A stretch of DNA of 64,000 nt from Deltaproteobacteria bacterium (GCA_002729515.1 PBYF01000059.1:1-64000); one strand, 5' to 3'; shown: positions 13,589 through 29,042, numbered from the stretch's first letter. Translations and numbers: made by a program. The notes: a model not told the origin generated them from the letters alone.

Positions 13589-14542
13589 TTGAGCGACCGA
13601 GTCTTCCAGGGCACATGGGGAGTAATCCTCGGTGGCTCGAGCGGCTTTGGCCTCGCAACGGCCCATGCACTGGCCGAGCGCGGCATGAACCTATGCCTCG
13701 TGCACCGCGACCGCCGCGCGGCGTTGCGTCGCGTGGAGCCCGACTTCGAAAAGATCCGCGCTTCCGGCGTCCAGCTACTCACCTTCAACGCCGACGCGCT
13801 ATCGGCCGAAAAGCGCGCCGAGATCCTCGACGTGCTGACCGGGGAGATCGGCGACGAACGCGTCCGCTTTCTCCTCCACTCCATCGCGTTCGGCAATCTC
13901 AAACTGATCGCGCCGGAGCAGACCCGACCGAACGCCGGAGGCAAGGGCCGAGCGCAACTCGCCCAGCGTCTCGGCGTCGACGCCGATGAGCTGGGCGCCG
14001 CCATCGACGCGGTCTTCGCGGAAGGTCACTCGGAGCTTCACACCCTCGCCACGCCGCCGGAGTACCCGTCGAAGTCCTTCCTGGACTACGAGGATTTCGC
14101 ACGAACGATCCACTGCATGGGAACGAGCCTGCTCGACTGGACCCAGGACCTGCTCGCGCGACAGCTTTTCGCCGGGGACGCACGAGTCTTCGGTCTGACC
14201 AGCGAGGGAAACACGGTGGCCTGGAAGGGCTACGCGGCCGTGGCCGCCGCCAAGGTGGCGCTCGAGTCCGTAGCCCGTTCCATCGCGGTCGAAATGGCCC
14301 CCCATGGCATCCGCTGCAACGTGATCCAGGCGGGCGTCACCGAGACGCCGGCGCTCGCGGCGATTCCCGGCAGCCACCACCTGAAGGCCCAGGCGCTCTG
14401 CCGCAATCCCTTCGGCAGGCTCACCAGACCCCGGGACGTCGCCGCCGTGATCGCGCTCCTGACCCGGGACGAAGCGGGCTGGATCAACGGCGAAGTGATT
14501 CGCGTCGATGGAGGTGAACACATCTCGGGAGCGACCTCGTGA
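13589..14542 (+). CDS. FabI-like enoyl-ACP reductase (SDR), first gene of lipid operon
   Basis: An SDR of 317 residues. The nucleotide loop is ILGGSSGFGLATAHAL. LLHSIAFGNLKL matches the FabI motif, and the catalytic pair has FabI spacing, Y215-x6-K222, in GYAAVAAAKVALES. IRCNVIQAGVTETPA and VDGG complete the fold. About 40 extra residues sit between the SIAF motif and the active site (LAQRLGVDADELGAAIDAVF), longer than ordinary FabI. It likely reduces trans-2-enoyl thioesters with NAD(P)H, though a 3-ketoacyl or other reductase role is possible. The TTG start at 13589 has GGAGG seven bases upstream. The last codons overlap the next start by four bases. It is the first gene of a ten-gene run. 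Confidence 0.85.
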   Translation: MSDRVFQGTWGVILGGSSGFGLATAHALAERGMNLCLVHRDRRAALRRVEPDFEKIRASGVQLLTFNADALSAEKRAEILDVLTGEIGDERVRFLLHSIAFGNLKLIAPEQTRPNAGGKGRAQLAQRLGVDADELGAAIDAVFAEGHSELHTLATPPEYPSKSFLDYEDFARTIHCMGTSLLDWTQDLLARQLFAGDARVFGLTSEGNTVAWKGYAAVAAAKVALESVARSIAVEMAPHGIRCNVIQAGVTETPALAAIPGSHHLKAQALCRNPFGRLTRPRDVAAVIALLTRDEAGWINGEVIRVDGGEHISGATS

Positions 14543-15534
14543 CGCTTTGGCTGCACTCCCTGGGACACTTCCACCCCGAGAACGAGATCACGAATCGTTT
14601 CCTCGAGGAACTCGACATCGGGACCGACGACGCCTGGATCCTCGAGCGGGTGGGAATTCGCTCTCGCCGCACCGCGCTCGACCTCGGATACATCCGCGAA
14701 ACCCGCAACTGCGACGTGCGCGCAGCGACGGAGGCGAGCAGCATCAGCCTGGCAGAGCAAGGGGCGCAGGCAGCCCGCATGGCGCTCGACCGCGCCGGAC
14801 TCTCGGCCACCGACATCGGCATGGCGATCTTCGGAAGTTCTGCACCCGACTGGGTCTCTCCAGCCGAAGCGTGCAACGTGGCGAGCGCTCTCGACGTGGA
14901 CGTTCCGTCCTTCGACGTGAACTCGGCCTGCACGAGCTTCCTCGCCCAACTCCACCTGCTCTCGCTGATGGATCCGGCAAAGCTGCCGCAGTTCGTGCTC
15001 CTCGTCGGAGCCGACAGCCTGACCAAGACCGTCGACTACAATGACCGTACGGCGGCTGTGCTCTGGGGCGACGGCGCCGCGGCGGCGATCGTTTCGACAC
15101 GCGAACCCGGACGTGCCTGCGTGCTGGGCAGCGACCTCGAATCCCGTCCCACGGCGGGCGATAAAGTCGTCGTGTCCCGCACTGGCTTTTTCGCCCAGGA
15201 GGGGCGCACCGTCCAGAGCTTCGCGATCCGGAAGACACGAGACGGCTTCGAACGCCTGCGCTGCGAGTTGGCTCAGGAGGATCGGCCCCTCCACTTCGTC
15301 GGCCACCAGGCAAATCTCCGCATGCTCGAGACGGTGTGCCGCTATTGCGACATCCCACCGGAGCGACACCACGCCAACGTGGAGTGGTACGGGAATACCG
15401 GTGCCGCCAGCTCGGCCACGGTGATTTCCCAGCGCTGGGGAAAGTGGGAGCCGCACGACGACATCGGAGTGGTGGGCGTCGGTGCCGGACTCACCTGGGC
15501 GGGCTACCTGCTCCGCTTCGGAGGTCCGGCGTGA
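14539..15534 (+). CDS. 3-oxoacyl-ACP synthase III-like protein
   Basis: A thiolase-fold condensing enzyme of 331 residues. The KAS III triad is intact: C131 in NSACTSF, H256 in VGHQANLRMLE and N286 in YGNTGAASS. The N-terminal segment WILERVGIRSRR corresponds to the FabH TRTGIRxRR region with Thr-Arg changed to Glu-Arg. It should catalyse decarboxylative condensation of malonyl-ACP with an acyl starter and so prime the pathway; the starter is unknown. The GTG start overlaps the preceding stop and the stop overlaps the next GTG. In this operon it pairs with a separate KAS I/II gene. Confidence 0.9.
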   Translation: MTLWLHSLGHFHPENEITNRFLEELDIGTDDAWILERVGIRSRRTALDLGYIRETRNCDVRAATEASSISLAEQGAQAARMALDRAGLSATDIGMAIFGSSAPDWVSPAEACNVASALDVDVPSFDVNSACTSFLAQLHLLSLMDPAKLPQFVLLVGADSLTKTVDYNDRTAAVLWGDGAAAAIVSTREPGRACVLGSDLESRPTAGDKVVVSRTGFFAQEGRTVQSFAIRKTRDGFERLRCELAQEDRPLHFVGHQANLRMLETVCRYCDIPPERHHANVEWYGNTGAASSATVISQRWGKWEPHDDIGVVGVGAGLTWAGYLLRFGGPA

Positions 15535-16121
15535 AGTACTCCGATTTCCTCACCGCCGATGGCTTCAACGAGGCGGATCTGCTCGCCTTCGCCCACGGAA
15601 CACTGATCGAAGACGCCCCGGAAGCGTTCGCCGCACGCCTCCCCGCGCCGCCCATGCTGATGCTCGACCGCGTCACGCATATCGAGCGTCGGGGCAATCG
15701 CGGGCGGGTGACGGCCGAGCGCGACGTACGTCTCGACGACTGGTTCTTCCAGTGCCACTTCATCAGCGATCCGGTGCAGCCGGGATGCCTGGGTGTCGAC
15801 GGGGTCTGGCAACTGCTGGGCTTCTACTGCAACTGGGCGGGCGGCCTCGGCGCAGGGCGGGCGCTCGGCTGCGGCGAAATCGAATTCTTCGGCCAGATCC
15901 GCCCTCACGACCAGCTGGTGCGCTACGAAATCGACGTGCGGCGCTACACCGAACTCCCCGAGTCGCGCTCGGCCATCGCGATCGGAGACGCCACGCTGAG
16001 CGTGGACGACGAGCCCATCTACACCATCAAGCGCGCCAAAGTCGGACTCTTCCGCGATCTCGCCTACCGCAACTACCCCCAGCTCTCGGAGAACGCGCGC
16101 GGCGGCAGGCTCGACCGATGA
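15531..16121 (+). CDS. fabA: FabA-like 3-hydroxyacyl-ACP dehydratase/isomerase
   Basis: A hot-dog protein of 196 residues, close to E. coli FabA in motifs. WFFQCHFISDPVQPGCLG carries the catalytic His (H76), and GVDGVWQLLGFY carries the Asp (D90). The 14-residue spacing equals that of FabA H70-D84. GCGEIEFFGQI and KVGLFRD also match. FabA dehydrates 3-hydroxyacyl-ACP and isomerises trans-2 to cis-3 double bonds, so its presence suggests an unsaturated product. Whether isomerase activity is kept cannot be told from sequence. The GTG start overlaps the previous stop (GTGA); the stop overlaps the next ATG. Confidence 0.92.
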   Translation: MKYSDFLTADGFNEADLLAFAHGTLIEDAPEAFAARLPAPPMLMLDRVTHIERRGNRGRVTAERDVRLDDWFFQCHFISDPVQPGCLGVDGVWQLLGFYCNWAGGLGAGRALGCGEIEFFGQIRPHDQLVRYEIDVRRYTELPESRSAIAIGDATLSVDDEPIYTIKRAKVGLFRDLAYRNYPQLSENARGGRLDR

Positions 16122-16570
16122 GCGCGATGCCGACGCCCGAGGAAGTCCTGGCCCGGATTCCGCAACAGGAGCCGTTCCGCTTCATCGACGAGATCCTCTG
16201 CATCGACGAGGAGGAGATCGAGGCCCGCTACACCTGGCGGCCCGACTCCGACTTCTACCGGGGGCACTTCCCGGGCAACCCGGTGACGCCGGGCGTACTG
16301 TTGATCGAGTCCATGGCCCAGGCGGCCGTCGTTGCCCACGGGATCTACCTGCTGAGCCGCGATGGCGGAGATCCGGAAAAACTGGTCACATTCTTTACCG
16401 ATGCCCAGGTCGACTTCAGCGGCGTGGTGAAACCGGGCGACCGCGTGGATATCCGGGGTCAAAAGATCTTCTGGCGCCGGCGCAAGCTTCGCTCGCAGGC
16501 GGAGATGCGCCTCGCGGACGGCACGGTCGTCTGCACCGCCGTGCTTTCGGGGATGGGGGTGGCGCAATGA
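16118..16570 (+). CDS. FabZ-like 3-hydroxyacyl-ACP dehydratase
   Basis: A second, shorter hot-dog dehydratase of 150 residues. The motif GHFPGNPVTPGVLLIESMAQ contains the catalytic His (H50) and Glu (E64), with the usual 14-residue spacing. The N-terminal PFRFIDEI replaces the common PFLLVDRV. Having both a FabA and a FabZ type implies division of labour: FabA for the isomerising step, this one for ordinary dehydration during elongation. It overlaps both neighbours by four bases, so translation is coupled. Confidence 0.9.
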   Translation: MSAMPTPEEVLARIPQQEPFRFIDEILCIDEEEIEARYTWRPDSDFYRGHFPGNPVTPGVLLIESMAQAAVVAHGIYLLSRDGGDPEKLVTFFTDAQVDFSGVVKPGDRVDIRGQKIFWRRRKLRSQAEMRLADGTVVCTAVLSGMGVAQ

Positions 16571-17844
16571 AGCAGCGCGTCGTGATCACCGGTCTCGGCA
16601 TCGTGGCACCGAATGGAAACGGGCTCCACGACTTCGAGATCGCGCTGCGCAAGGGGCGCTCGGGACTGCGGCGTCACCCCGCCATGGAAAAACACGGCTT
16701 CGCCTGCAGGGTGGCCGGTGTTCCCCAGGGTGCGGATGAACTGGCCGAGGCGATGTTCGACAGCGACGAACTCATCGCCATGAACTCGAGTCACCGCTTC
16801 GCTGGGATCGCCGCCGTCGACGCATGGACCGACGCGGGTCTTCCGCGTCCGGCCCGAGACGACGAGACCGTCGACTGGGACAGCGGCGCAATCCTGGGCA
16901 CCGGGATCGGCGGAATGGATACGATCGCGGCACACATCGTGCCGCGGGTGAATAGCAATAGCGTCCGCCGGCTCGGCAGTACCATGGTCGAGCAGGTGAT
17001 GGCGAGCGGAGTCTCCGCACGGATCTCCGGCCTCCTGGCCCTCGGAAACCAGGTGACGACCAATTCGAGCGCGTGCAGCACCGGCACCGAGGCACTCGCC
17101 CTGGGATTCGAGCGAATCCGCCGAGGTGCTGCGAAGCGGATGCTCGTGGGCGGCGCCGAGGGTGCGAGTGAGTACATCTGGGCCGGCTTCGACGCCATGC
17201 GCGTGCTCTGCCGTAGCTTCAACGACGAGCCCGAGAAGGCCTCGCGCCCCATGAGTGCCAGCGCCGGGGGGTTCGTCCCGGCGGCTGGGGCGGGCGCACT
17301 GCTGCTCGAGAGTCTCGAATCCGCCCGTGAACGTGGCGCGCGCATCTACGCCGAAGTGATGGGCACCGCGATCAATTGCGGCGGACAGCGCGGCGGCGGC
17401 AGCATGACGGCACCCAATCCCGAGAGCGTGCGCCGCTGTATCAAGAGCGCACTCGAAGCCGCGGGCGTCCCCGGTGACGAGATGGGCGTCATCAACGGCC
17501 ACCTGACCGCGACCGGTGCGGATCCCTCGGAGGTGCACGCCTGGGCGAACGCCCTGGAGTGTGCTCCCGGAAAACTGCCCCCCATCACCTCGACCAAGAG
17601 CATGATCGGCCACGCGCTCGGGGCAGCGGGCGCCATCGAGTGCGTCGCGACCGTGCTGATGCTCCGCCACGGCTTCGTGCACCCCTCCATCAACTGCGAA
17701 GACCTGCACCCGGAGATAGAGCCGTACGCGGCGTCGGTCCCGCACGAACTGCGCGCGTTTCCGGAACTGCGGTTCGCGATCAAGGCCGGCTTTGGCTTTG
17801 GCGACGTGAACGCCGCGACCGTCCTCCGGAAATGGAATACCTGA
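16567..17844 (+). CDS. 3-oxoacyl-ACP synthase I/II (KAS)
   Basis: A 425-residue elongating condensing enzyme. The Cys-His-His triad is C170 in SSACSTGTE, H312 in NGHLTATGADPSE and H349 in KSMIGHALGAAGA. The 37-residue gap between the histidines equals that of FabF. The first histidine lies in NGHLTATGAD rather than the usual AHGTSTPLND, a shift seen in specialised KAS enzymes. The C-terminus (KAGFGFGDVNAATVL) is FabF-like. It elongates the ACP-bound chain with malonyl units. The ATG overlaps the dehydratase stop by four bases; a 45-bp gap precedes the ACP gene. Confidence 0.93.
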   Translation: MKQRVVITGLGIVAPNGNGLHDFEIALRKGRSGLRRHPAMEKHGFACRVAGVPQGADELAEAMFDSDELIAMNSSHRFAGIAAVDAWTDAGLPRPARDDETVDWDSGAILGTGIGGMDTIAAHIVPRVNSNSVRRLGSTMVEQVMASGVSARISGLLALGNQVTTNSSACSTGTEALALGFERIRRGAAKRMLVGGAEGASEYIWAGFDAMRVLCRSFNDEPEKASRPMSASAGGFVPAAGAGALLLESLESARERGARIYAEVMGTAINCGGQRGGGSMTAPNPESVRRCIKSALEAAGVPGDEMGVINGHLTATGADPSEVHAWANALECAPGKLPPITSTKSMIGHALGAAGAIECVATVLMLRHGFVHPSINCEDLHPEIEPYAASVPHELRAFPELRFAIKAGFGFGDVNAATVLRKWNT

Positions 17845-17889
17845 AACGCTTTCAACTGGCGGCCCAGCCGCGGCATAGAAAGGAACCCA

Positions 17890-18138
17890 ATGGACCGCGA
17901 AGAAGCATTCGCAAAAGTCGTGAAAATCATCACGCCCCACGTGAAAAACCAGGCGGCACTCGAGTCCGCCGACGATGCCACACACATCCTCGACGATCTC
18001 AAGGTGAACTCCGCCCGGCTCGTGGACGTGGTGCTCGCCTTCGAGGACGAGTTCGACATCGAGATCCCGGACGAGGACGTCGACGCAGTGAATACGATTG
18101 GCGATTGCGTGAATCTGGTCCTCGAGAAGACCGGCTGA
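17890..18138 (+). CDS. Acyl carrier protein with Asn-Ser attachment site
   Basis: An 82-residue acidic carrier protein. Helix 2 reads LKVNSARLVDVVLAFEDEF, placing the phosphopantetheine serine at S41. The universal Asp-Ser-Leu is replaced by Asn40-Ser41-Ala42. IEIPDEDVDAVNTIGDCVNLV gives the acidic recognition helix and C-terminal helix, so the fold is intact. The changed site suggests recognition by a dedicated phosphopantetheinyl transferase, and one is encoded two genes downstream. GAAAGGAACCC lies before the ATG. It would carry the growing chain for the operon's condensing enzymes. Confidence 0.92.
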   Translation: MDREEAFAKVVKIITPHVKNQAALESADDATHILDDLKVNSARLVDVVLAFEDEFDIEIPDEDVDAVNTIGDCVNLVLEKTG

Positions 18139-18147
18139 CCCGAGCCC

Positions 18148-18900
18148 TTGTCCGGTTTCCCGCTCATAGCCTCCGAGCGCCGCACGCTCGAATTCCAGCG
18201 TCTGGTTGGGAGAATCCTGGCCCCGCTGTGGGTCCCGGTCTGCGTGGGAATCATGCGCTTCGTCTTCCGCTGGCGCATCGAGGGAATGCAGCAGGCCCGG
18301 CGCACCTATGCGCACATCCGCCGCGATCCGACGACCCCGGTGGTCATCTGCGCGAATCACCTCACGATGCTCGACTCCGGAGCCATCGCGTGGGCGCTGG
18401 CCTCTCCGTGGCAGCATGTGACGCACTACACGTCGTTACCCTGGAATACCCCCGCCCGGGAGAATTTCGCCTCCACGTGGTGGAAACAAGCGCTGATCTG
18501 GGTCATGAAGTCCTTGCCCGTGGAGCGCGGTGGCGACCGGCGCGCCGTGGGCGCCGTCTTGAAGCGCCTGGTCTACCTGACGGGGCGCGGCGACGTGGCG
18601 CTCATCTTTCCCGAGGGAGGGCGCAGCCGCACCGGACGAGTGAACACACAAGCCGTCACCTATGGCATCGGGCGCATCGTCAAAACGTATCCGGGCTGCC
18701 AGGTGGTATGCGTCTACCTGAGGGGAGCTGCCCAGGAGACCTGGACCACACGCCCGGCTTTCGGCGAGACGCTTCGCATTTCCGTCGAGTGCTTCGAGCC
18801 CAAAACCGACAAAAGGGGCCTCAGGGGAAGCGTCGACATCTCTAGCCAGATCCTCAAGCGGCTCGACGCGATGGAACGGGAGCATTTCGATGCTCGGTAA
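18148..18900 (+). CDS. PlsC-type acyltransferase
   Basis: A 250-residue lysophospholipid or glycerol-3-phosphate acyltransferase-like protein. The H-x4-D motif is in NHLTMLDS (H71, D76), and the glycerolipid motif FPEGGRS is at about 154-160. A hydrophobic segment near residues 20-40 (LAPLWVPVCVGIMRFVF) likely binds the membrane. It could move the finished acyl chain from ACP to a lipid acceptor, coupling the pathway to membrane lipids. The TTG at 18148 is the only suitable early start, nine bases after the ACP stop. It overlaps the next gene by eleven bases. Confidence 0.88.
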   Translation: MSGFPLIASERRTLEFQRLVGRILAPLWVPVCVGIMRFVFRWRIEGMQQARRTYAHIRRDPTTPVVICANHLTMLDSGAIAWALASPWQHVTHYTSLPWNTPARENFASTWWKQALIWVMKSLPVERGGDRRAVGAVLKRLVYLTGRGDVALIFPEGGRSRTGRVNTQAVTYGIGRIVKTYPGCQVVCVYLRGAAQETWTTRPAFGETLRISVECFEPKTDKRGLRGSVDISSQILKRLDAMEREHFDAR

Positions 18901-19474
18901 CGACGTCGTCGACCTCGCCGATCCCGAGGTGCGCGGCGGCCCCGCACACCCGCGCTTCGACGCCCGCGTCTTCTCCCCGCCGGAACGCCGTGCGCTCGAG
19001 TCGGAGAGCGCCCCCAACCGGTTGCGATGGACGCTGTGGGCGGCGAAGGAGGCCGCCTACAAGCTGGCGGTCAAACGGGACCCGAACGCGATCTTTGCCG
19101 CCTCCCGCTTCGTCGTGAGGCTAGACGGAGCATCGCACGGGCAGGTGGCGCACCCCGGTGGGTGTGTCGCGGTGACGCTCGACGTCCGGGACGACACCGT
19201 GCATGCGGTGGCGCGCGATACCGCCGCATCAGAGGTCGTAATCGGCCTGGCGTCCTGTGCCGATTCAACGGATGCTTCCGCTGCTGTGCGTCACCTCGCG
19301 GTACACGACGTCGCTTCGCGGCTCGGTGTCACACAATCGGATCTGCAGCTCGGGCGCCGCGGGCGGATCCCGACGCTCTCGCTGCGAGGCTCGGACCGCC
19401 ACCTAGACCTCTCCCTCTCGCATCACGGACGCTACGTGGCATTCGCGTGCGAGGTCGGAACCACCGCGGCGTGA
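18890..19474 (+). CDS. 4'-phosphopantetheinyl transferase
   Basis: A 194-residue carrier-protein-activating enzyme. The magnesium-binding N-terminus GNDVVDL (D5) and the signature W-x2-K-E-A in WAAKEAAYKL (W50, K53, E54) mark the superfamily. LSLSHHGRYVAFA near the C-terminus is the SHxxxYVAxA element. It transfers phosphopantetheine from CoA to the ACP serine. Its position between the acyltransferase and the carboxylase suggests it serves the atypical ACP of this operon. The start overlaps the previous gene and the stop overlaps the carboxylase GTG. Confidence 0.88.
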   Translation: MLGNDVVDLADPEVRGGPAHPRFDARVFSPPERRALESESAPNRLRWTLWAAKEAAYKLAVKRDPNAIFAASRFVVRLDGASHGQVAHPGGCVAVTLDVRDDTVHAVARDTAASEVVIGLASCADSTDASAAVRHLAVHDVASRLGVTQSDLQLGRRGRIPTLSLRGSDRHLDLSLSHHGRYVAFACEVGTTAA

Positions 19475-22400
19475 GCGGATCCGACGCGCCCCAGCGTTTC
19501 GCGATCGTGAATCGCGGCGAGTCCGCCCTGCGCTGCATTCGCGCCGTCAAATCGCTGCGTGCTGCCGAGGGGTCGGGCCTGCGTGCGATCGCGCTCTACA
19601 CGCCGGTCGACCGCGACGCTCCGTTCGTGCGCCATGCCGATATTGCAGTGCCGCTACCCGCCGAAGAGGGCCGTGAGGTTGCGGCCTACCTGGACCACGA
19701 CGGCATCCTCCGCGCACTGCTCGAAAGCGGTGCGGACGCCGTGTGGCCGGGCTGGGGCTTCGTGGCCGAGGATCCCGTCTTCGTCGAGCGGCTCGAGGAG
19801 GTGGGTATCCGCTTCCTCGGTCCTTCTGCCCGGGCAATGCGCCAACTGGGCGACAAGATCTCCTCGAAGGAAATCGCCGAGAAGGCGGGAGTACCCGTCA
19901 CGCCCTGGAGCGGAGGCGTCGTCGCAGACGAAAACCAGGCCGCGAAAGTGGCGGAACGCCTGGGGTTCCCCGTGGTCGTCAAGGCGGCGGCCGGCGGCGG
20001 CGGCCGCGGCATCCGACTGGTAGAGCGCGCCGAGGATTTACCGGAGGCTTTCCGCTCGGCGGCCTCCGAGTCAGCAACCGCGTTCGGAGACAACCGGCTC
20101 TTCATCGAGCGGAAGGTGACAGGCGCTCGCCACGTCGAAGTGCAGATCGCCGCCGATCTGGAGAGCTTCGTGGTCTCCCTCGGCTGCCGTGACTGTTCGG
20201 TCCAGCGACGGCACCAGAAACTGATCGAAGAGGCGCCGCCTCCGGGTCTGAACCGGAATCTCATCGAGAAACTCGAGGCCGCCGCGGTACACCTCGCGCG
20301 CGAAGTGGGCTACAGCGGCGTCGGCACCGCCGAGTTCCTGGTCTCGGACGAGGAATTCCAGTTCCTGGAGATGAACCCTCGACTCCAGGTGGAGCACGGC
20401 ATCACCGAAACGGTGACCGGCGTCGACCTCGTCGAGTTGCAGATCCGTATCGCGCGCGGCGAGTCCCTCGTCGGCCTCAGCTTCGTCGAGCGGGGTACGG
20501 CCATCGAGGCCCGGGTCTGTGCCGAGGATCCCGACGCCGGCTTCCTGCCCGCGCCCGGACGCATCGCGCGCTTCGATCCCGCGCTCGGCCCGGGCGTGCG
20601 CGTCGACACCGGCGTCGCCGCCGGGAGCGCCGTTCCGGCCGCATTCGACTCGCTGATCGCAAAGGTAATTGCAAGCGGGCGCAACCGCGAGGAAGCGCGC
20701 GCGCGCCTGGCCTGCGCGCTCCTAGATTTCGACCTGGTGATCGAGGGCGGCGCTACGAACAAAGGCTTTCTGCTCGATGTGCTCGACGCTCTCGACTTCC
20801 GGGAAGGCGGCGTCGATACCGAATGGCTCGACCGCTTTTGCGCGGACCGCGGGCCGGAACGCGAATACGGCGTCGAGGCCCTCGTGGTCGCCGCGATCCT
20901 CTCCTACCAGAACACGCGACACGCGGCACGCCTCAACTTCTACGCCGACACGAGCAATGTGTCACCGGACCGAACCCCCCCCGCCCGCGGGCAGAAGATC
21001 GACCTCAGCCACGGAGCCGAGAGCTACCGCGTCGAGGTCTTTGCGGTCGGCTCCTGGCGCTACCGGGTGCACTGCGACGGTCGCGTGGTCGAGGCAACTC
21101 TCCGTGAGGACGGCGCGCATACCGCCCGCCTGACGCTGGGCGAACGCACCGTCCGCGTGCTCTACGACCGCACCGAGTCCGGCCTGCGCGTGGAGGTCGA
21201 GGGACGCACCCACACCTTCAGCAATCAGGCTGCCGGAGAAGTTCGGGCGGGCACGCCGGCGATGGTCGTCGCCGTCCAGGTATCACCTGGCGACGAAGTG
21301 CATGCCGGCCAACGCCTCGGTCTCCTCGAAGCCATGAAGATGGAAATCGGCTTCGACTCCCCCGTCTCGGGTGTGGTGAAGGAGGTGTCTGCCCGGCGCG
21401 GACAACAGGTAGCGGCCGGCGAGGTCCTGCTCGTGATCGAGCCGACCCAGGAGGGCACCCCGACCGGAACGCTGGCCCCGCGCCTTGAACTCTTCCGGGT
21501 GCCCGATCGTCTGGCACCGCTTTTCTCAGACACCGATTCGGGCATCAGCGACCTGGCAGCCGCCGGTGCGGCACCGGCGGCCGAGCGCCACGGCGCATTG
21601 GCGGCGGTTCGAGAAGAGGTCCGACGCGTGCTCCTGGGATACGACACCAACGAGGCACGCGCCGAACTCCTCGCCTCGTTCCTCGAGGCGCCGTTGCCCG
21701 GTGGCCTCTCGGAAGACTTTCTCTGGGAGCTGGCCGAGATCCGCCGGGAACTCGAGGCCTTTGCCGACGTCGATCAGCTCTTCATCCGCGCGCCCGGCGC
21801 TTCAGTCGGTGGCGAACTCGGCCCGTCGAACAATGCCCGCTTGCGCGTCTTCGTGCGTCGCCTCCACGCCGCCGGAGCGGGTATCGACGAGAGCTTCCTC
21901 ACACTGGTACAGCAAGCTCTCTCCCATTATGGAATTGACTCACTCGAACACTCCGACGCGCTCGAGCGCGCAGTGCTGCGGCTTCTCTCGTCACAGCTCC
22001 AGGACGGGCTCCGCCAGCATCTGGTGCTCGCGATCCTCTCCCGCGTGGTGGAACTCACCGAGAGGGGTGTGCGCCTGGGCACGGATCGCGCACTCGAAGC
22101 CGCGCTGGAACGAATCGCCGGAATGCGCGGTCTCGTGTCCGACGCCGTGGCCGACGCAGCGGCCGACGCGTCCTACACCATCTTCGAACGCCCCCGGATC
22201 GAACGCCTCGCCGAGCGGACCAGCAAGCAGCTCGAAGAGTGGCTCGCGCTGGCGGAGTCCGAGCCACACCCGCCGCCCGAGGAAGTACTGCTGCACCTCG
22301 CCGACGCACCCCAGCCCATTTTCAACCGGGTCGGCAACTGGCTCTCGGACGACGATCCCCGCCGCCGCGCAATCGCGATGGCAGCGTGGCTGCACCGGCT

Positions 22401-25059
22401 CTACTCACCGGAGGTGCCGGCACTACACACCTCGGCCGTGAGCGCGGAGGGCCGGTACGATCGCTTCGACTTCCAGGAAAGGGGCGTCGTGCTGGCGGCG
22501 ACCTGCACACCCGACGAAATTTCCGAACGCGTCGAGTGCCTCTTGGAGCGCGCCGCCGAGTCGGACACCGGAGCCACGCGCGCGCTGGAGATCTTCGTGC
22601 CGATCGAGGGCGAAGAATCCCGCGATCATTGGCTCGCGATTCTGGCGGGCCTGCCCGCAGCCGAGGACGCACCTCGAATCACAGTCACCATCGTGCCACG
22701 CAACGGCAGCTGCATCCACCACACGCTCGCGGTGACACCGGACGGGCTTCTCGAAATCGAGGATCTCCACGGAATCCACCCCGAGACCGCGCGACGCATC
22801 GACCTAGAGCGTCTCGATGGCTTCGAACTCGAGCGCATCCCTTCCGGCGAAAACATCTACTGCTTCCACTGCCGCTCGCGGGAGGTCGCTTCGGACGAGC
22901 GTGTAATCGTTCTCGCAGATGCCCGCAGCCGTTCTCCGGACGATGACCGCGAGGTGGCACTTCACGTTCCGGCCTTCGAGCACGCCTTCTACGAAGCAAC
23001 GCGCGCACTCCGCTCGATTCTGCGAGCCCGCGACCCGAAGCGGAGACTCCAGTGGAACCGCGTCGCGCTCTTCGTCTCTCCGGCGATCCTGCTGGATCCG
23101 GACACCGCCCAACAGCTGGCCCGTCGCCTCGCCCCCGCCACCCGCAACCTCGGACTCGAAAAAGTCGTCGTGCGGATCCAGGTCCTTGAGCGCGCGGTGC
23201 CCGATCGACCGCTGGAGGCCATCGAGTTCGTGATCTCCAACATCACCGGATCGAATATGGAGATCCGGACACGGGCACCCCACGTCGCACCGCTCGAACC
23301 GCGCAGCGACTACGAGCGGCGCATCGTCGAAGCGCGTCGCCGCCGGCTCATCTACCCCTACGAAATCATTCGGATGCTCACGGGCATGGGCCAGGGCCAG
23401 GCACCGGTCGGTGTCGGGCCGGCGTCCGAGCTGACGGTGGGACGTTTCGAGGAATTCGACCTGGACCCCCAGGCGCAGACACCGCGGGCTGCCAGCGTCG
23501 AGGGGCGCCCCTACGGAAAGAACAGCTGCGGAATCGTCTTCGGCATCATCACGACGCCAACTCCGAAGGTGCCCGAGGGCATGAGCCGGGTCCTGGTCCT
23601 CTCGGATCCGACTCTCGGCATGGGTTCCCTCGCCGCGCCGGAGTGCGACCGGTTGATCGCAGCGCTCGACCTGGTCGAGGAGCGCCAGCTCCCGCTCGAG
23701 TGGATCCCGGTCTCGAGTGGAGCCCGCATCGCGATGGACAGCGGCACCGAAAACCTCGACGCCACCGCCCGCGTGGTTCGCCGCATCGTGCATTACACCC
23801 AGGACGGCGGCACGATCCACCTGATCGTTCCGGGCGTCAACGTCGGTGCCCAGAGCTACTGGGACGCCCTCGCCACCATGCAGATGCACAATCGCGGAGC
23901 GCTCATCATGACGCCCCGGGGTTCCATGGTGCTCACCGGCCGTGCGGCCCTCGAAGCGTCGGGAGGAGTGGCGGCGGAGGACGAGCCCGCCATCGGCGGC
24001 TTCGAGCGAATCATGGGGACCAATGGCGAGGCCCAGTACTTCGCGAACGACCTCGCCGACGCATTCCGCATCCTCTACCAGCACTACGACTTCACCTACG
24101 TGGTTCCCGGCGAAGCCGGCCCGAGGCCGCTGCCGACCGGAGATCCGCCGGAACGATCCATCTGCGAATCCCCCTGCGACGCGGGCGGGAACGGCGGCGA
24201 ATTCCAGACTGTCGGCGAAATCTTCGACGACGTGGCAAACCCGGGCCGCAAACGCCCCTTCCCCATGCGCGCCGTCATGAAGGCCGTAATCGATGACGAT
24301 GGCGGTCACCTCGAGCGCTGGCGCGCCTGGGTGGGCGCCGAGACGGCCATCGTCTGGGACGCCCATATCGGTGGACACCCCGTCTGCCTGATCGGAATCG
24401 AGAGCACCAACGTGGAGCGCGAGGGCTATCGCCCGCCCGACGGCCCCTCGACCTGGAATGCCGGCACGCTCTTCCCCCTCTCTTCGAAAAAAGTGGCTCG
24501 CGCGATAAACGCCTCCAGCGGGAACCGTCCAGTCGTGGTGCTCGCAAATCTCTCCGGCTTCGACGGCTCCCCCGAAAGCATGCGGAAGCTCCAGCTCGAA
24601 TACGGGGCCGAGATCGCCCGCGCCGTCGTGAACTTCGACGGGCCGATCGTCTTCCTGGTCGTCTCCCGCTACCACGGAGGCGCCTACGTAGTCTTCTCCC
24701 AGGACCTCAATCCGCGGCTCAAAGCCGCCGCCCTCGAGGGTTCCTACGCCTCGGTCATCGGGGGCGGCCCAGCGGCGGCCGTCGTCTTCAGTCGGGAAGT
24801 GCGAGCACGCGCTCTGGCCAACCCGGAGGTTTCCCGCCTCGAGCAAGAGGCACGCAGCCGCAGAACGCCGGCCGCACGCGATCAATTCGACCGTATGCTG
24901 AGGGAATCGATGCTCGAGAAACAGTCCGAGATCGCAGCGGAGTTCGACGACATCCACACCGTCGAGCGCGCTCGCCAGGTGGGCTCGCTCACCGAGATCA
25001 TCACCCCTGCCGAGATGCGCTCCTTCCTGATCCGCGAGCTCTCCGGCAGCGAAAGCTGA
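19471..25059 (+). CDS. Single-chain biotin-dependent carboxylase, eukaryotic ACC-like layout
   Basis: A 1862-residue carboxylase on one chain. Residues 1-460 are biotin carboxylase, with an ATP-grasp loop AAGGGGRGIRL (about 174-180) and LEMNPRLQVEH (E300, N302, R304). The biotinyl domain has LLEAMKMEIG with the biotin lysine at K623. About 620 residues of helical linker follow, where eukaryotic acetyl-CoA carboxylase has its central region. The carboxyltransferase starts near 1290 (YPYEIIRML), with SSGARIAM (about 1415-1422), VLANLSGFDGSPESM and HGGAYVVFSQDLNP (about 1735-1748). These parallel the NSGARIG, FANWRGFSGG and RGGSWVV motifs of eukaryotic ACC. It probably makes malonyl-CoA for the operon; another acyl-CoA substrate is possible. 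The GTG start overlaps the previous stop. Confidence 0.88.
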   Translation: MSGSDAPQRFAIVNRGESALRCIRAVKSLRAAEGSGLRAIALYTPVDRDAPFVRHADIAVPLPAEEGREVAAYLDHDGILRALLESGADAVWPGWGFVAEDPVFVERLEEVGIRFLGPSARAMRQLGDKISSKEIAEKAGVPVTPWSGGVVADENQAAKVAERLGFPVVVKAAAGGGGRGIRLVERAEDLPEAFRSAASESATAFGDNRLFIERKVTGARHVEVQIAADLESFVVSLGCRDCSVQRRHQKLIEEAPPPGLNRNLIEKLEAAAVHLAREVGYSGVGTAEFLVSDEEFQFLEMNPRLQVEHGITETVTGVDLVELQIRIARGESLVGLSFVERGTAIEARVCAEDPDAGFLPAPGRIARFDPALGPGVRVDTGVAAGSAVPAAFDSLIAKVIASGRNREEARARLACALLDFDLVIEGGATNKGFLLDVLDALDFREGGVDTEWLDRFCADRGPEREYGVEALVVAAILSYQNTRHAARLNFYADTSNVSPDRTPPARGQKIDLSHGAESYRVEVFAVGSWRYRVHCDGRVVEATLREDGAHTARLTLGERTVRVLYDRTESGLRVEVEGRTHTFSNQAAGEVRAGTPAMVVAVQVSPGDEVHAGQRLGLLEAMKMEIGFDSPVSGVVKEVSARRGQQVAAGEVLLVIEPTQEGTPTGTLAPRLELFRVPDRLAPLFSDTDSGISDLAAAGAAPAAERHGALAAVREEVRRVLLGYDTNEARAELLASFLEAPLPGGLSEDFLWELAEIRRELEAFADVDQLFIRAPGASVGGELGPSNNARLRVFVRRLHAAGAGIDESFLTLVQQALSHYGIDSLEHSDALERAVLRLLSSQLQDGLRQHLVLAILSRVVELTERGVRLGTDRALEAALERIAGMRGLVSDAVADAAADASYTIFERPRIERLAERTSKQLEEWLALAESEPHPPPEEVLLHLADAPQPIFNRVGNWLSDDDPRRRAIAMAAWLHRLYSPEVPALHTSAVSAEGRYDRFDFQERGVVLAATCTPDEISERVECLLERAAESDTGATRALEIFVPIEGEESRDHWLAILAGLPAAEDAPRITVTIVPRNGSCIHHTLAVTPDGLLEIEDLHGIHPETARRIDLERLDGFELERIPSGENIYCFHCRSREVASDERVIVLADARSRSPDDDREVALHVPAFEHAFYEATRALRSILRARDPKRRLQWNRVALFVSPAILLDPDTAQQLARRLAPATRNLGLEKVVVRIQVLERAVPDRPLEAIEFVISNITGSNMEIRTRAPHVAPLEPRSDYERRIVEARRRRLIYPYEIIRMLTGMGQGQAPVGVGPASELTVGRFEEFDLDPQAQTPRAASVEGRPYGKNSCGIVFGIITTPTPKVPEGMSRVLVLSDPTLGMGSLAAPECDRLIAALDLVEERQLPLEWIPVSSGARIAMDSGTENLDATARVVRRIVHYTQDGGTIHLIVPGVNVGAQSYWDALATMQMHNRGALIMTPRGSMVLTGRAALEASGGVAAEDEPAIGGFERIMGTNGEAQYFANDLADAFRILYQHYDFTYVVPGEAGPRPLPTGDPPERSICESPCDAGGNGGEFQTVGEIFDDVANPGRKRPFPMRAVMKAVIDDDGGHLERWRAWVGAETAIVWDAHIGGHPVCLIGIESTNVEREGYRPPDGPSTWNAGTLFPLSSKKVARAINASSGNRPVVVLANLSGFDGSPESMRKLQLEYGAEIARAVVNFDGPIVFLVVSRYHGGAYVVFSQDLNPRLKAAALEGSYASVIGGGPAAAVVFSREVRARALANPEVSRLEQEARSRRTPAARDQFDRMLRESMLEKQSEIAAEFDDIHTVERARQVGSLTEIITPAEMRSFLIRELSGSES

Positions 25060-25062
25060 GCC

Positions 25063-25929
25063 GTGAAGTTCTGCGTCTCCCTGGCATTCACCGACCTCAC
25101 CCACTACGTCGAGACCGCGAAGACTGCCGAAGAGTACGGCTGGAACTACGCAGTGGTATCGGATCACGTGGTCCACCCGGAGAAGATCGCCACGCCCTAC
25201 CCCTACACCCACGACGGTGCGCCACGCTGGGAATCGACGGCACCCTGGCCCGACCCCATCGTCGCGATCGCAGCCATGGCCTCCGCGACCCACCGGCTGC
25301 GTTTCATGACCTCTGTCTTCGTTCTCCCCCTGCGCAACCCCTTCCTCGTGGCGAAGGCGGTCGGCACGACGTCGTTGGTGTCCGGGAATCGCCTGACCCT
25401 CGGAATCGGTGCGGGCTGGATGGAGGACGAGTTTCGGCTCATGGATCAGGACTTCCGGTGCCGCGGCAGGCGCATGGACGAGATGATCGACGTGATGCGC
25501 AAGCTCTGGACGGGAGAAATGGTGGAACACCGGGGCGAGTTCTACCCCTTCGACCGGCTCCAGATGAGCCCGGGCCTGACGGAGCCCGTCCCGATCTGGT
25601 CCGGCGGTATCTCGGAGGCAGCGCTGCGCCGGGTGGGCCGGGTAACGGACGGATGGATCTCCGACTTGCACTCGACGGAGGAGCTCCGGGAGCTCATCGG
25701 AAAAGTGCGGCGGTACCGGGCCGACGCCGGCCGCGGCGACGAACCGCTTCCCATCGTCGGAGCCTGCACCGACGCCGTCGGCGTGGATGGCATCCGCCGA
25801 CTGGAAGAAATCGGAGTGACCCACCTGCTGACCCTTCCGTGGGTGTTCTACGGACTGGACGGCCAGACCCTCGAAGGCAAGAAAGAGGGCCTGCGCCGCT
25901 TTGCGGAGGACGTGATCGCCGCGTTCTGA
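25063..25929 (+). CDS. LLM-class F420-dependent oxidoreductase (lipid operon)
   Basis: A luciferase-like TIM-barrel protein of 288 residues. Recognisable segments are WNYAVVSDHVVHP, HRLRFMTSVFVLPLRNP, GNRLTLGIGAGWMEDEF and PVPIWSGGISEAALRRVG. The GTG start is only three bases after the carboxylase stop, so it is probably the last gene of the lipid operon. It may reduce or oxidise the lipid product with F420, but no substrate is visible. It is clearly a different paralogue from those at 8473-9279 and 35159-36187. Confidence 0.86.
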   Translation: MKFCVSLAFTDLTHYVETAKTAEEYGWNYAVVSDHVVHPEKIATPYPYTHDGAPRWESTAPWPDPIVAIAAMASATHRLRFMTSVFVLPLRNPFLVAKAVGTTSLVSGNRLTLGIGAGWMEDEFRLMDQDFRCRGRRMDEMIDVMRKLWTGEMVEHRGEFYPFDRLQMSPGLTEPVPIWSGGISEAALRRVGRVTDGWISDLHSTEELRELIGKVRRYRADAGRGDEPLPIVGACTDAVGVDGIRRLEEIGVTHLLTLPWVFYGLDGQTLEGKKEGLRRFAEDVIAAF

Positions 25930-25979
25930 GACACCTTCAGCACGCCGGGCGCACCGCCCTGGTATCCTTTCGCGCCGCA

Positions 25980-28900
25980 ATGTCTTTGGATGAGCCGCTC
26001 TTGTGGCGTTTTCTGCCAGACGTCCGCACCGGGGAACGCTCTCGGTTCCTCTTCTTTGCGGGCCTCTTGATGCTGATCAGCCTCGGCCAGACAATAGGGC
26101 TGGCGGGCACCGAGGCGCTCTTTCTAGCGAAGCTCGGAATCGAGGATCTGGGCCAAGCGTTCGTCGCCGCCGCCATATTCACCGTCGTGGGCTCCATGGC
26201 ATACGCCGCACGCGTCGGAAACGTGAGAAATGACGGGCTGTTCATCCAGATGCTATTCGGCGCGGCCCTTCTGCTCTCCGGCGGCGCATTCCTGGTCGAT
26301 CGGCAAAGCGTCGCGATCCTGCCGGCCCTGTTCTGCTTCTGGTACCTGACCCAGGCGATCTTCCTGAACCATTTCTGGACGTTCAGCGGTGACTTCTTCG
26401 ACACGCTGTCGAGCAAGCGACTCGTTCCCCTCTTCACGATCGGCTCCAGCCTCGGCGGGGTGGTGGGAGGCTTGGCGGCCGCCGCACTCGCGAGATTCTC
26501 TGGCCCGGCGAGCCTGATCGCTGCATGGGGCATCACCCTCGCAGCTGCGGCGGTGCTGCTGATTCTTGGTCACCGCGCCCTGCGCCGGTGGGGCCCCCTC
26601 GAATTGGAGGAAGCAGACGAAACCTCAGCGGAGAACCTGCGCGGCGCGGCCCGCTATGCCGGAAGCTCACCTCTCACACGCTGGCTCGTTCTCTCGGCTC
26701 TCGGAATGGTAATCGCTGCGTTCATGGCGCAGTACCTCTACTCGGACGTCTTCGCCCGACGCTTCCCGGAGCCCGCCGAACTCGCAGCATTCTTCGCGAT
26801 CTATTTCGCCGTTACCAATCTGATCGAGATCCTGGTCGAGGTCTTCGTCACGCCGCGGCTCATCCGCAGGATTGGCGTGCCCGGGGCGAACCTGATCCAC
26901 CCCGTTCTGCTGATCCTTTCTTTTGGCGGGCTGGCCTGGCGCTACGGCCTCCCGGCCGCGATGGGCGCCCGCATGGCCCGCGAACTGACGGATAACGCAC
27001 TGGCTGCACCGATCCGCTCACTCGTGCAGAACGCGATCCCCCGCAGGCTCCGCGGCCGCATGCGCGCTTTCCTCGAGGGCATTGTCGTCTACGCCGGCAT
27101 GGCGACAGCGGGCCTCCTGCTGCTCCTCTTCGACCAGCCCGATCCGCTCTGGCTGTGCGGCGCCGGTGCAGCCGCCGGGCTCTTCTACCTGGTCGCGAAT
27201 ATCCGCGTCCGGCGGGCCTACTGCGACACACTGGTCGACCAGCTGAAAGCGGGACGCCTGGACTTCGCGCAGGGTGAAGCCACGATCGGTGGCTGGGAGG
27301 CCTCCCAGCTGGCGGAACTCTGGGAGGAGTCGCTCCGCACCGAGGGTCCCCGGCCCTCGGATTCGGTGATGCAGCTGATCCCAGCGCTCGCATCGCGCGG
27401 CATCGTCGATCCGCTGGTGCGCGCGGCCTCACACTCAACCGCGGCGGTGCGCCGGGCAAGCGTCACCGCATTGGCATCGACCGGACTGGAGCGTCTGGCC
27501 GGACCCGTCGCGCTCTCGCTGGACGACCCGGATTCCGACGTGCGGCTCGCCGCCCTTCGCGGGCTGGCGCGCGTCTCCGGCGACGGCCAGTTTCTGCAGA
27601 GCCGCGTCGACGACCTCCTCGAGGACCTCGACCCCCGGGTGCGCGCCGAAGCCGCCTCGATGGCCGGCGACGCGGGCGTCGAGACCCTCGAGAAGATGAT
27701 CGACTCCTCGAGCGCCGCGGAAGCGGGTGCCGCGTTGGCCGTGGCACCCGCCGCCCTGCTACCCAGCGCCGTGGACCGCATAGCCAGCACCGATGCTCGC
27801 ATTCGCGCCGCGGCGGTCGCGTGCGCAGCGCGGCTCACGGACGCTCCGCCACTCGAGACGCATACCCTGCTGGACCTGCTCCGCGACGAGGACGCCGGCG
27901 TGCGACACGCCGCCGCACTCCTGGCCGCGAGCTATGACGCCGGCGAGGTGCTCGCCGCCTTGGCCGATCGGCTCACCGATTCCTCGGCCCGGGTGCGCTC
28001 CGCGGCCGAAAGCGCGCTGGGATCCAGGGGCGCAGCGGGTATCGCAATCGTCGAGCCGCACCTTCGCGACGACACGGAGCAGACCGTCGAAGCTGCACTG
28101 CGCGTGCTGGACACCAGCTCAGCGCCGATCGCGCACAGCTTGCTGCTTCGGGAACTTCGTCACCGCGTCGAGAGGCTGTGGTGGTACCTGCTTGGCGTCC
28201 AGCACCTCAGTGTGGATCGGAACCCTTCGCACCGCCTGCTCGCCGCCGCCTTCGGCGACGCGATCCTGCGCGAGTGGCGACTGGCGTTCTACGTTCTCGG
28301 GCTCGTCGAAAGCCAGAGCATGATCCACAAGGTGTCGCGAGAGCTGCGCGTCGGAACCGCGCGCTCCCGCGCGGACGCCCTCGAGGTACTGGCGAACCTC
28401 GGCAACCGGGAGAGCGCCCGCCTGCTCGTCCTGGCCCACGAGGCGGGGCCGCTCTGGGAGCGCGCTCGTTTCGTGACCAACACGATCGATGTACCCACTG
28501 AACCCAGCGCGCTCGTGGAAGCGGCTTTCGAGGCGGACAATCGCTGGGTGCGGAACGCGGCGCACCTCGCGACGGATGGGGTGCGCGGCCTGGCGCACGA
28601 GGAGGAGACGATGCAGCAGATCCTGGCACTCAAACGAGTGGACCTCTTCAGCAACCTGAGCTTCGAACAGCTCGAGGCAATCCTCCAAGCCAGCAGCAAC
28701 GCCGAGTTCCTGGCGGGCGAGGTCATCTTTCGCGAAGGCGAGCCCGGGAACACGCTCTTCCTGCTGGTCGATGGCGCCGTGGACATCGTGAAGGACCACG
28801 AAGGCAAGCGGGAGTTGACGCTGAAGACCATCCACGCCGTCGATTACTTCGGGGAGATGGCGATCCTGACAGACGACCCGCGGAGCGCGACGGCCATCGC

Positions 28901-29042
28901 AGCCGGCCACTGCCGTCTGATCACCCTCGATGGCGACGCCTTTCGCGAGTTGCTGCTCCAGATTCCAGAAATTTCATTCGAGATCTTCCGGGTCCTGACG
29001 CGCCGCGTCCGCGACGCCGAACAAAAATTTCGCGAGCGCTGA
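25980..29042 (+). CDS. Transporter-like membrane protein fused to HEAT repeats and cyclic-nucleotide-binding domain
   Basis: A 1020-residue fusion. Residues 1-430 form about twelve hydrophobic helices of MFS or ATP/ADP-translocase type (start MSLDEPLLWRFLPDV, later LFTIGSSLGGVVGG). Residues ~460-720 are helical HEAT-like repeats with recurring DPDSDVRLAALRGLA and DEDAGVRHAAALLAA. Residues ~880-1010 are a cNMP-type domain: ILALKRVDLFSNLSFEQL, IFREGEPGNTLFLLVDG, and VDYFGEMAILTDDPRSATA, close to the Crp-like phosphate-binding cassette. The design suggests a membrane protein gated by a ligand and by protein contacts. The ATG at 25980 has no clear Shine-Dalgarno sequence. Similar fusions are known in deltaproteobacteria; the substrate is unknown. 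Confidence 0.88.
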   Translation: MSLDEPLLWRFLPDVRTGERSRFLFFAGLLMLISLGQTIGLAGTEALFLAKLGIEDLGQAFVAAAIFTVVGSMAYAARVGNVRNDGLFIQMLFGAALLLSGGAFLVDRQSVAILPALFCFWYLTQAIFLNHFWTFSGDFFDTLSSKRLVPLFTIGSSLGGVVGGLAAAALARFSGPASLIAAWGITLAAAAVLLILGHRALRRWGPLELEEADETSAENLRGAARYAGSSPLTRWLVLSALGMVIAAFMAQYLYSDVFARRFPEPAELAAFFAIYFAVTNLIEILVEVFVTPRLIRRIGVPGANLIHPVLLILSFGGLAWRYGLPAAMGARMARELTDNALAAPIRSLVQNAIPRRLRGRMRAFLEGIVVYAGMATAGLLLLLFDQPDPLWLCGAGAAAGLFYLVANIRVRRAYCDTLVDQLKAGRLDFAQGEATIGGWEASQLAELWEESLRTEGPRPSDSVMQLIPALASRGIVDPLVRAASHSTAAVRRASVTALASTGLERLAGPVALSLDDPDSDVRLAALRGLARVSGDGQFLQSRVDDLLEDLDPRVRAEAASMAGDAGVETLEKMIDSSSAAEAGAALAVAPAALLPSAVDRIASTDARIRAAAVACAARLTDAPPLETHTLLDLLRDEDAGVRHAAALLAASYDAGEVLAALADRLTDSSARVRSAAESALGSRGAAGIAIVEPHLRDDTEQTVEAALRVLDTSSAPIAHSLLLRELRHRVERLWWYLLGVQHLSVDRNPSHRLLAAAFGDAILREWRLAFYVLGLVESQSMIHKVSRELRVGTARSRADALEVLANLGNRESARLLVLAHEAGPLWERARFVTNTIDVPTEPSALVEAAFEADNRWVRNAAHLATDGVRGLAHEEETMQQILALKRVDLFSNLSFEQLEAILQASSNAEFLAGEVIFREGEPGNTLFLLVDGAVDIVKDHEGKRELTLKTIHAVDYFGEMAILTDDPRSATAIAAGHCRLITLDGDAFRELLLQIPEISFEIFRVLTRRVRDAEQKFRER

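Follow-up and report, generated by a model that had tools for sequence, protein, structure and literature searches.

Gene content of the locus

The window analysed in this study is a 64-kb stretch of DNA, positions 1-64000 of contig C116 (92,112 bp), from the MAG of a Deltaproteobacteria bacterium (4.44 Mb in 149 contigs; 93% complete, 7.7% contaminated). Profile searches of the window revealed ten genes at 13589-25929, all on the + strand and nearly all overlapping (Table 1). All of them belong to the families given in the initial annotation of this DNA. The intergenic distances, in gene order, are -4, -4, -4, -4, +45, +9, -11, -4 and +3 bp when the ATG at 16118 is taken as the FabZ start. 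Rfam and tRNA scans of the whole window gave no match.

Table 1. Genes of the locus and domains of the large carboxylase, with window coordinates
Feature	Coordinates	Strand	Evidence
SDR, FabL/FabI-type enoyl-ACP reductase	13589..14542	+	Pfam adh_short_C2 1.7e-40
KAS III (FabH-like)	14539..15534	+	profile matches; Cys131/His256/Asn286 present
FabA dehydratase/isomerase	15531..16121	+	NF003509 207 bits vs cut-off 124; His76, Asp90
FabZ-type dehydratase	16118..16570	+	profile matches; His53, Glu67 (numbering counted from 16109)
KAS I/II-family condensing enzyme	16567..17844	+	Cys170/His312/His349
Acyl carrier protein (ACP)	17890..18138	+	PF00550 3.7e-7
PlsC/LPLAT-family acyltransferase	18148..18900	+	PF01553 5.1e-12; HX4D, FPEG
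Sfp-type 4'-phosphopantetheinyl transferase (PPTase)	18890..19474	+	PF01648 6.2e-9
Predicted single-chain acetyl-CoA carboxylase (ACC), 1862 aa, eukaryotic domain order	19471..25059	+	
ACC biotin carboxylase (BC) domain	19492..20841	+	Pfam Biotin_carb_N, CPSase_L_D2, Biotin_carb_C
ACC biotin carrier (BCCP) domain	21229..21441	+	PF00364 6.4e-14; EAMKM, biotinyl-Lys 623
ACC central domain (CD)	21448..23430	+	profile and structure matches to eukaryotic ACC CD
ACC carboxyltransferase (CT) domain	23458..25035	+	nearest solved relatives are eukaryotic ACC
F420-type LLM oxidoreductase, local addition	25063..25929	+	TIGR03619 223 bits vs cut-off 167

The first gene, initially described as FabI-like, does encode an SDR enoyl reductase, but one closer to FabL than to FabI. 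It exhibits the Y-x6-K and GxxxGxG motifs (the latter as GGSSGFG) and an insert of ~60 aa ahead of the active site, and its top NCBIfam and PDB matches are FabL; Y215 and K222 are invariant in 21 sequences. With regard to the dehydratases, the open reading frame 15482-16570 was considered as a single gene and rejected: FabA lies in another frame (15531-16121), and the start of FabZ overlaps its end by 4 bp (ATGA). The KAS I/II-family enzyme has diverged from FabF and FabB alike. In the ACP, the phosphopantetheine serine stands in an NSAR motif instead of the usual DSL, a replacement kept in 30 sequences.

Catalytic residues were compared in 18-30 aligned sequences per gene. The active sites of KAS III, KAS, FabA (H/D), FabZ (H/E), the enoyl reductase, the acyltransferase and the PPTase were all found to be present and invariant, including the C-H-N residues of KAS III (28 sequences) and the WxxKE...K residues of the PPTase among its aligned relatives. 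The combination of FabA with two condensing enzymes, to which FabZ is added, had been pointed out previously and is real. With discrete KAS III, KAS, dehydratase, enoyl reductase and ACP genes and intact active sites, the locus encodes a type II fatty-acid synthesis (FAS) system.

Architecture of the large carboxylase

The ninth gene had been noted as a giant carboxylase. Its 1862-aa product indeed combines biotin carboxylase and carboxyltransferase, but its most unusual feature, the eukaryotic architecture, was overlooked. Pfam detects BC, BCCP and CT domains in one chain and gives a weak match to ACC_central; Pfam, profile and structure comparisons taken together yield the order BC-BCCP-CD-CT, which is that of eukaryotic ACC. 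A heteromeric AccABCD enzyme is not what is encoded here, as the CT is fused into the single chain and a true AccA was not found in the host genome. The MK motif of the BCCP is present in the homologues compared.

The central domain of the bacterial fused ACC is homologous to that of eukaryotic ACC. A profile made from 45 homologous central regions gave significant matches solely to eukaryotic ACC central domains, the best being Chaetomium ACC (E 4.2e-16), followed by yeast and human. An AlphaFold2 model of the domain (pLDDT 85, pTM 0.84) was compared with the PDB using Foldseek: all 30 chains below E 1e-3 were eukaryotic ACC, with yeast ACC as the best match (E 1.5e-20 over 715 columns), and the first non-significant match, at 0.011, was noise. 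The global TM score with eukaryotic ACC is moderate (0.55) and the rmsd is high, as is expected where domains are placed differently; we therefore claim homology and fold, and not the same quaternary state.

For the CT domain, the best matches are to eukaryotic ACC (1.4e-20), well ahead of PccB types (7e-11), and a profile search likewise placed eukaryotic ACC closest. The BC part is about as similar to PCC, MCC and PYC enzymes. In a CT tree, the eukaryotic sequences, which are fragments from PDB alignments, group with the giant ACCs and away from PccB; its branches are saturated, with lengths at the limit, and the tree was left out of the claims on origin.

Conservation of the gene order

The first nine genes form an operon that is conserved across an order of uncultured Myxococcota. 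The carboxylase is present in 72 of 80 relatives, all from this one order, with 54-76% identity for the main copy; the relatives that bear names are uncultured Myxococcota or 'Deltaproteobacteria' MAGs. The same gene order, which the initial annotation had proposed to look for in other genomes, was found. Of the 34 first-type relative loci, 26 retain seven or more of the nine core genes in unchanged order and strand, so the gene row is not a product of chance. Five other loci run off the end of a contig, and three are reduced to a small remnant (FabZ-ACC, KAS III-ACC and SDR-FabG-ACC).

Many other families of the order exhibit a fuller version, ENR-KAS III-FabA-FabG-FabZ-KAS-ACP-PlsC-PPTase-ACC, in which a FabG (TIGR01830, 233 bits) precedes FabZ. 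In the host's family, the operon-type FabG lies outside the operon; the host copy is on contig C49 (76% identical; the next best is 43%). Contigs C49 and C75 give identical-scoring matches (for example FabG at 67634 and 31926), which suggests a duplicated contig in the MAG.

The LLM oxidoreductase, counted as the tenth operon gene in the initial annotation, was discarded as a member: it is missing in the same-genus genome G001 and adjoins the ACC in just one relative locus (in G009). Directly 3' of the locus, at 25937-29042, the window encodes a large protein with weak similarity to TLC ATP/ADP transporters, HEAT repeats and a cyclic-nucleotide-binding domain; in G001, a TLC/HEAT/cNMP-type gene of similar size directly follows the ACC.

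The giant ACC was not found in eight members of the order (G007, G018, G023, G029, G030, G035, G040 and G047), and the operon is therefore dispensable somewhere. Nearly all of the genomes compared are incomplete MAGs, so that such absences carry some risk. Full-length homologues of the ACC were also found outside the order, where they are not accompanied by the fab genes of the operon.

Other fatty-acid synthesis genes in the host and its relatives

The locus had been regarded as self-contained and as distinct from a housekeeping fab set. It is not self-contained, since FabD is absent from it and FabG from the host's copy, both being encoded elsewhere in the genome. Nor was a complete separate fab set found in the host: its other fab locus comprises only YceD-RpmF-FabD-ACP-FabF (FabD on contig C72), and a distant FabH lies on contig C41.

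In the host genome (93% complete), no PF07977 dehydratases were found besides the FabA and FabZ of the operon. In most operon-bearing relatives FabA and FabZ are likewise confined to the operon, save for PfaC-type domains and a relocated FabA. PfaC-like dehydratase domains within a 3037-aa frame are seen in G001 (C155:20790-37210); the host shows none.

A true AccA (over 250 bits) was also not found in the host genome. Of 80 genomes, just two encode one, and G007, a member of this pair, is without the giant ACC. A tally of PF03255, which scores 80 of 80 genomes, is misleading as a count of AccA: nearly all matches are weak and were taken as PccB-like carboxyltransferases, and only two exceed 250 bits. 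In two reduced genomes, G027 and G038 (2.2 and 2.8 Mb, 91% complete), no KAS III or PPTase was found outside the operon. Other components are more widespread. A FabF of canonical length is encoded outside the operon nearly throughout the order, there are PlsC-family proteins other than the operon's acyltransferase, and the host carries a PCC-type carboxylase gene set (contig C35).

FabZ was likewise not found in most of the operon-less clades of the order that were tested, and several of these carry adjacent MaoC-type genes, which suggests a replacement. Such genes were observed in G029 (L110 3158-5675), where they adjoin a PccB-like gene, and in G023 (L112 8225-9327); they are a possible HadAB-like stand-in for FabZ.

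The host encodes a third type II cluster on contig C70 (L091 4000-13000), comprising two ketosynthases, an ACP, a PlsC-family acyltransferase, an AMP-ligase and a tryptophan-halogenase-like FAD protein. Its gene content resembles that of a pathway for a pigment or polyketide.

Function of the operon

The biology encountered here is a variant of a type II FAS operon combined with a single-chain ACC, both of known kinds. On balance, we favour the interpretation that the operon serves core type II fatty-acid synthesis in the Myxococcota order and is supplied by a single-chain ACC of eukaryotic architecture that it encodes itself. The operon looks core because the host shows no AccA and no FabA or FabZ beyond those of the operon, and because KAS III and PPTase are encoded in the most reduced relatives by the operon only. 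Together with the FabD-ACP-FabF locus, it looks like one part of a two-part system rather than a free-standing extra pathway. The possibility that this is the organism's only fatty-acid locus, which the initial annotation had named as fatal to its proposal, is borne out in part: no other FabA or FabZ and no AccA were found in this 93%-complete MAG, but other copies of FabF, ACP and FabH are present. The canonical FabD-ACP-FabF genes and the FabH also count against a core role, as do the eight genomes of the order without the giant ACC, the unusual signature of the operon ACP compared with canonical ACP, the other PlsC-family proteins and the PCC-type carboxylase set on C35, which could likewise supply malonyl-CoA.

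In the pathway that we propose from the gene content, the single-chain ACC would make malonyl-CoA, and FabD would transfer the malonyl group to an ACP that the PPTase of the operon has activated. Synthesis would be primed by KAS III, and the operon KAS would elongate the chain. Ketoreduction would be carried out by FabG, supplied from C49 in the host and from within the operon in other families. FabZ would dehydrate, whereas FabA would both dehydrate and isomerise, keeping a cis double bond, and the FabL-like SDR would reduce the enoyl intermediate. The PlsC homologue would then pass this chain on to a glycerolipid. The atypical ACP and the second KAS may serve a branch of this pathway, for example for unsaturated chains, alongside the canonical ACP and FabF.

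The invariant NSAR motif of the ACP leaves room for such a dedicated branch. A stronger version of this idea, close to the proposal in the initial annotation, is that the operon is a dedicated second system: a special acyl chain, such as an unsaturated or a long one, would be assembled on the operon ACP and delivered to a membrane lipid via the operon acyltransferase, a logic resembling that of the rhizobial AcpXL very-long-chain cluster. The initial annotation had pointed to a PPTase, an acyltransferase and a carboxylase as parts of the operon; these, together with an ACP, are confirmed as belonging to a conserved type II acyl-chain operon. The conserved NSAR of an ACP standing beside a canonical FabD-ACP-FabF locus, the operon's own PPTase and acyltransferase, the second FabH of the host and the absence of the operon from some clades would all fit a dedicated system. 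However, it would have to share FabD and, in the host, FabG; the host has no other FabZ, FabA or AccA, in G027 and G038 the sole KAS III and PPTase found are those of the operon, and the operon is near-universal in the order. We regard a dedicated system as possible but rather doubtful.

It is improbable that the large enzyme is an acyl- or propionyl-CoA carboxylase, with methyl-branched or alpha-carboxylated chains as the product of the operon. The BC resembles PCC, MCC and PYC about equally, PCC-type enzymes accept several acyl-CoAs and the substrate is not readable from sequence, yet both CT and CD have eukaryotic ACC as their first match and PccB only much further down, the Tsukamurella homologue has a type I PKS/FAS and a holo-ACP synthase as neighbours, and the host lacks AccA as an alternative.

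Comparison with known systems

The operon and its carboxylase can be compared with several described systems. The rhizobial acpXL-lpxXL cluster likewise brings together a dedicated ACP, FabZ, condensing enzymes and an acyltransferase, but is without KAS III, FabA, PPTase and carboxylase, and its LpxXL is not a PlsC (PMC11901934). Instead of the LpxXL/MsbB and two FabF proteins of an AcpXL cluster, the present operon encodes a PF01553 acyltransferase and one KAS plus KAS III. The Pfa PUFA synthases have FabA-type dehydratase chemistry in common with the operon but are multidomain type I proteins (KS-ACP-DH), whereas here every enzyme is a discrete gene product, a distinction that the initial annotation had drawn correctly.

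A single-chain bacterial ACCase serving type II FAS has been described in Shewanella oneidensis (AccS); its domain order is reported to be unlike that of eukaryotic ACC, it is encoded in a single-gene operon next to AccR, and its homologues are reportedly confined to Shewanella and a small number of gammaproteobacterial genera (PMC11602165). The Myxococcota ACC, which has the eukaryotic order, is set apart from AccS by this published description. With the ACCs of yeast, Chaetomium and human (ACC1), it shares the one-chain BC-BCCP-CD-CT organisation and a homologous CD, and its CT is closest to theirs. It differs from them in being bacterial, in having a CD only ~15% identical and in sitting in a type II fab operon.

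Distribution and origin of the fused ACC

The main interest of the locus is an ACC of eukaryotic architecture in bacteria. The Myxococcota order appears to use this fused enzyme instead of a four-subunit ACC, within one operon that holds most of fatty-acid synthesis. A literature search of open-licence papers for eukaryote-type ACC in Myxococcota found no describing paper. Whether bacterial XCC subunits fused about a central linker to give rise to eukaryotic ACC is a question that Lombard and Moreira did not settle (PMC3199775). A bacterial ACC family whose domains follow the eukaryotic order and whose CD is homologous makes this question testable with sequences and structures, and may help to trace the source of eukaryotic ACC.

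The fused ACC family was found in 139 of 379 sampled Myxococcota genomes. It also occurs on Actinomycetota replicons (Tsukamurella, Gordonia and Embleya), with 39-48% identity over the aligned part, where the homologues are annotated as 'carboxyl transferase domain-containing protein'. The Tsukamurella copy comes after genes for a type I PKS/FAS and for a holo-ACP synthase, and thus differs from the Myxococcota enzyme, a member of the same family, in not neighbouring type II fab genes. Tentatively, the eukaryotic and the Myxococcota/Actinomycetota fused ACCs might derive from one fusion in bacteria, the eukaryotic cytosolic ACC having been acquired from such a bacterium. If so, the type II operon would show the fused ACC still beside separate fab enzymes.

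Some genomes carry a second copy of the fused ACC, 38-45% identical (L061, L062, L064 and L072-L074). In G019, the second copy shares its contig with a 2665-aa KS-containing frame and a PPTase.
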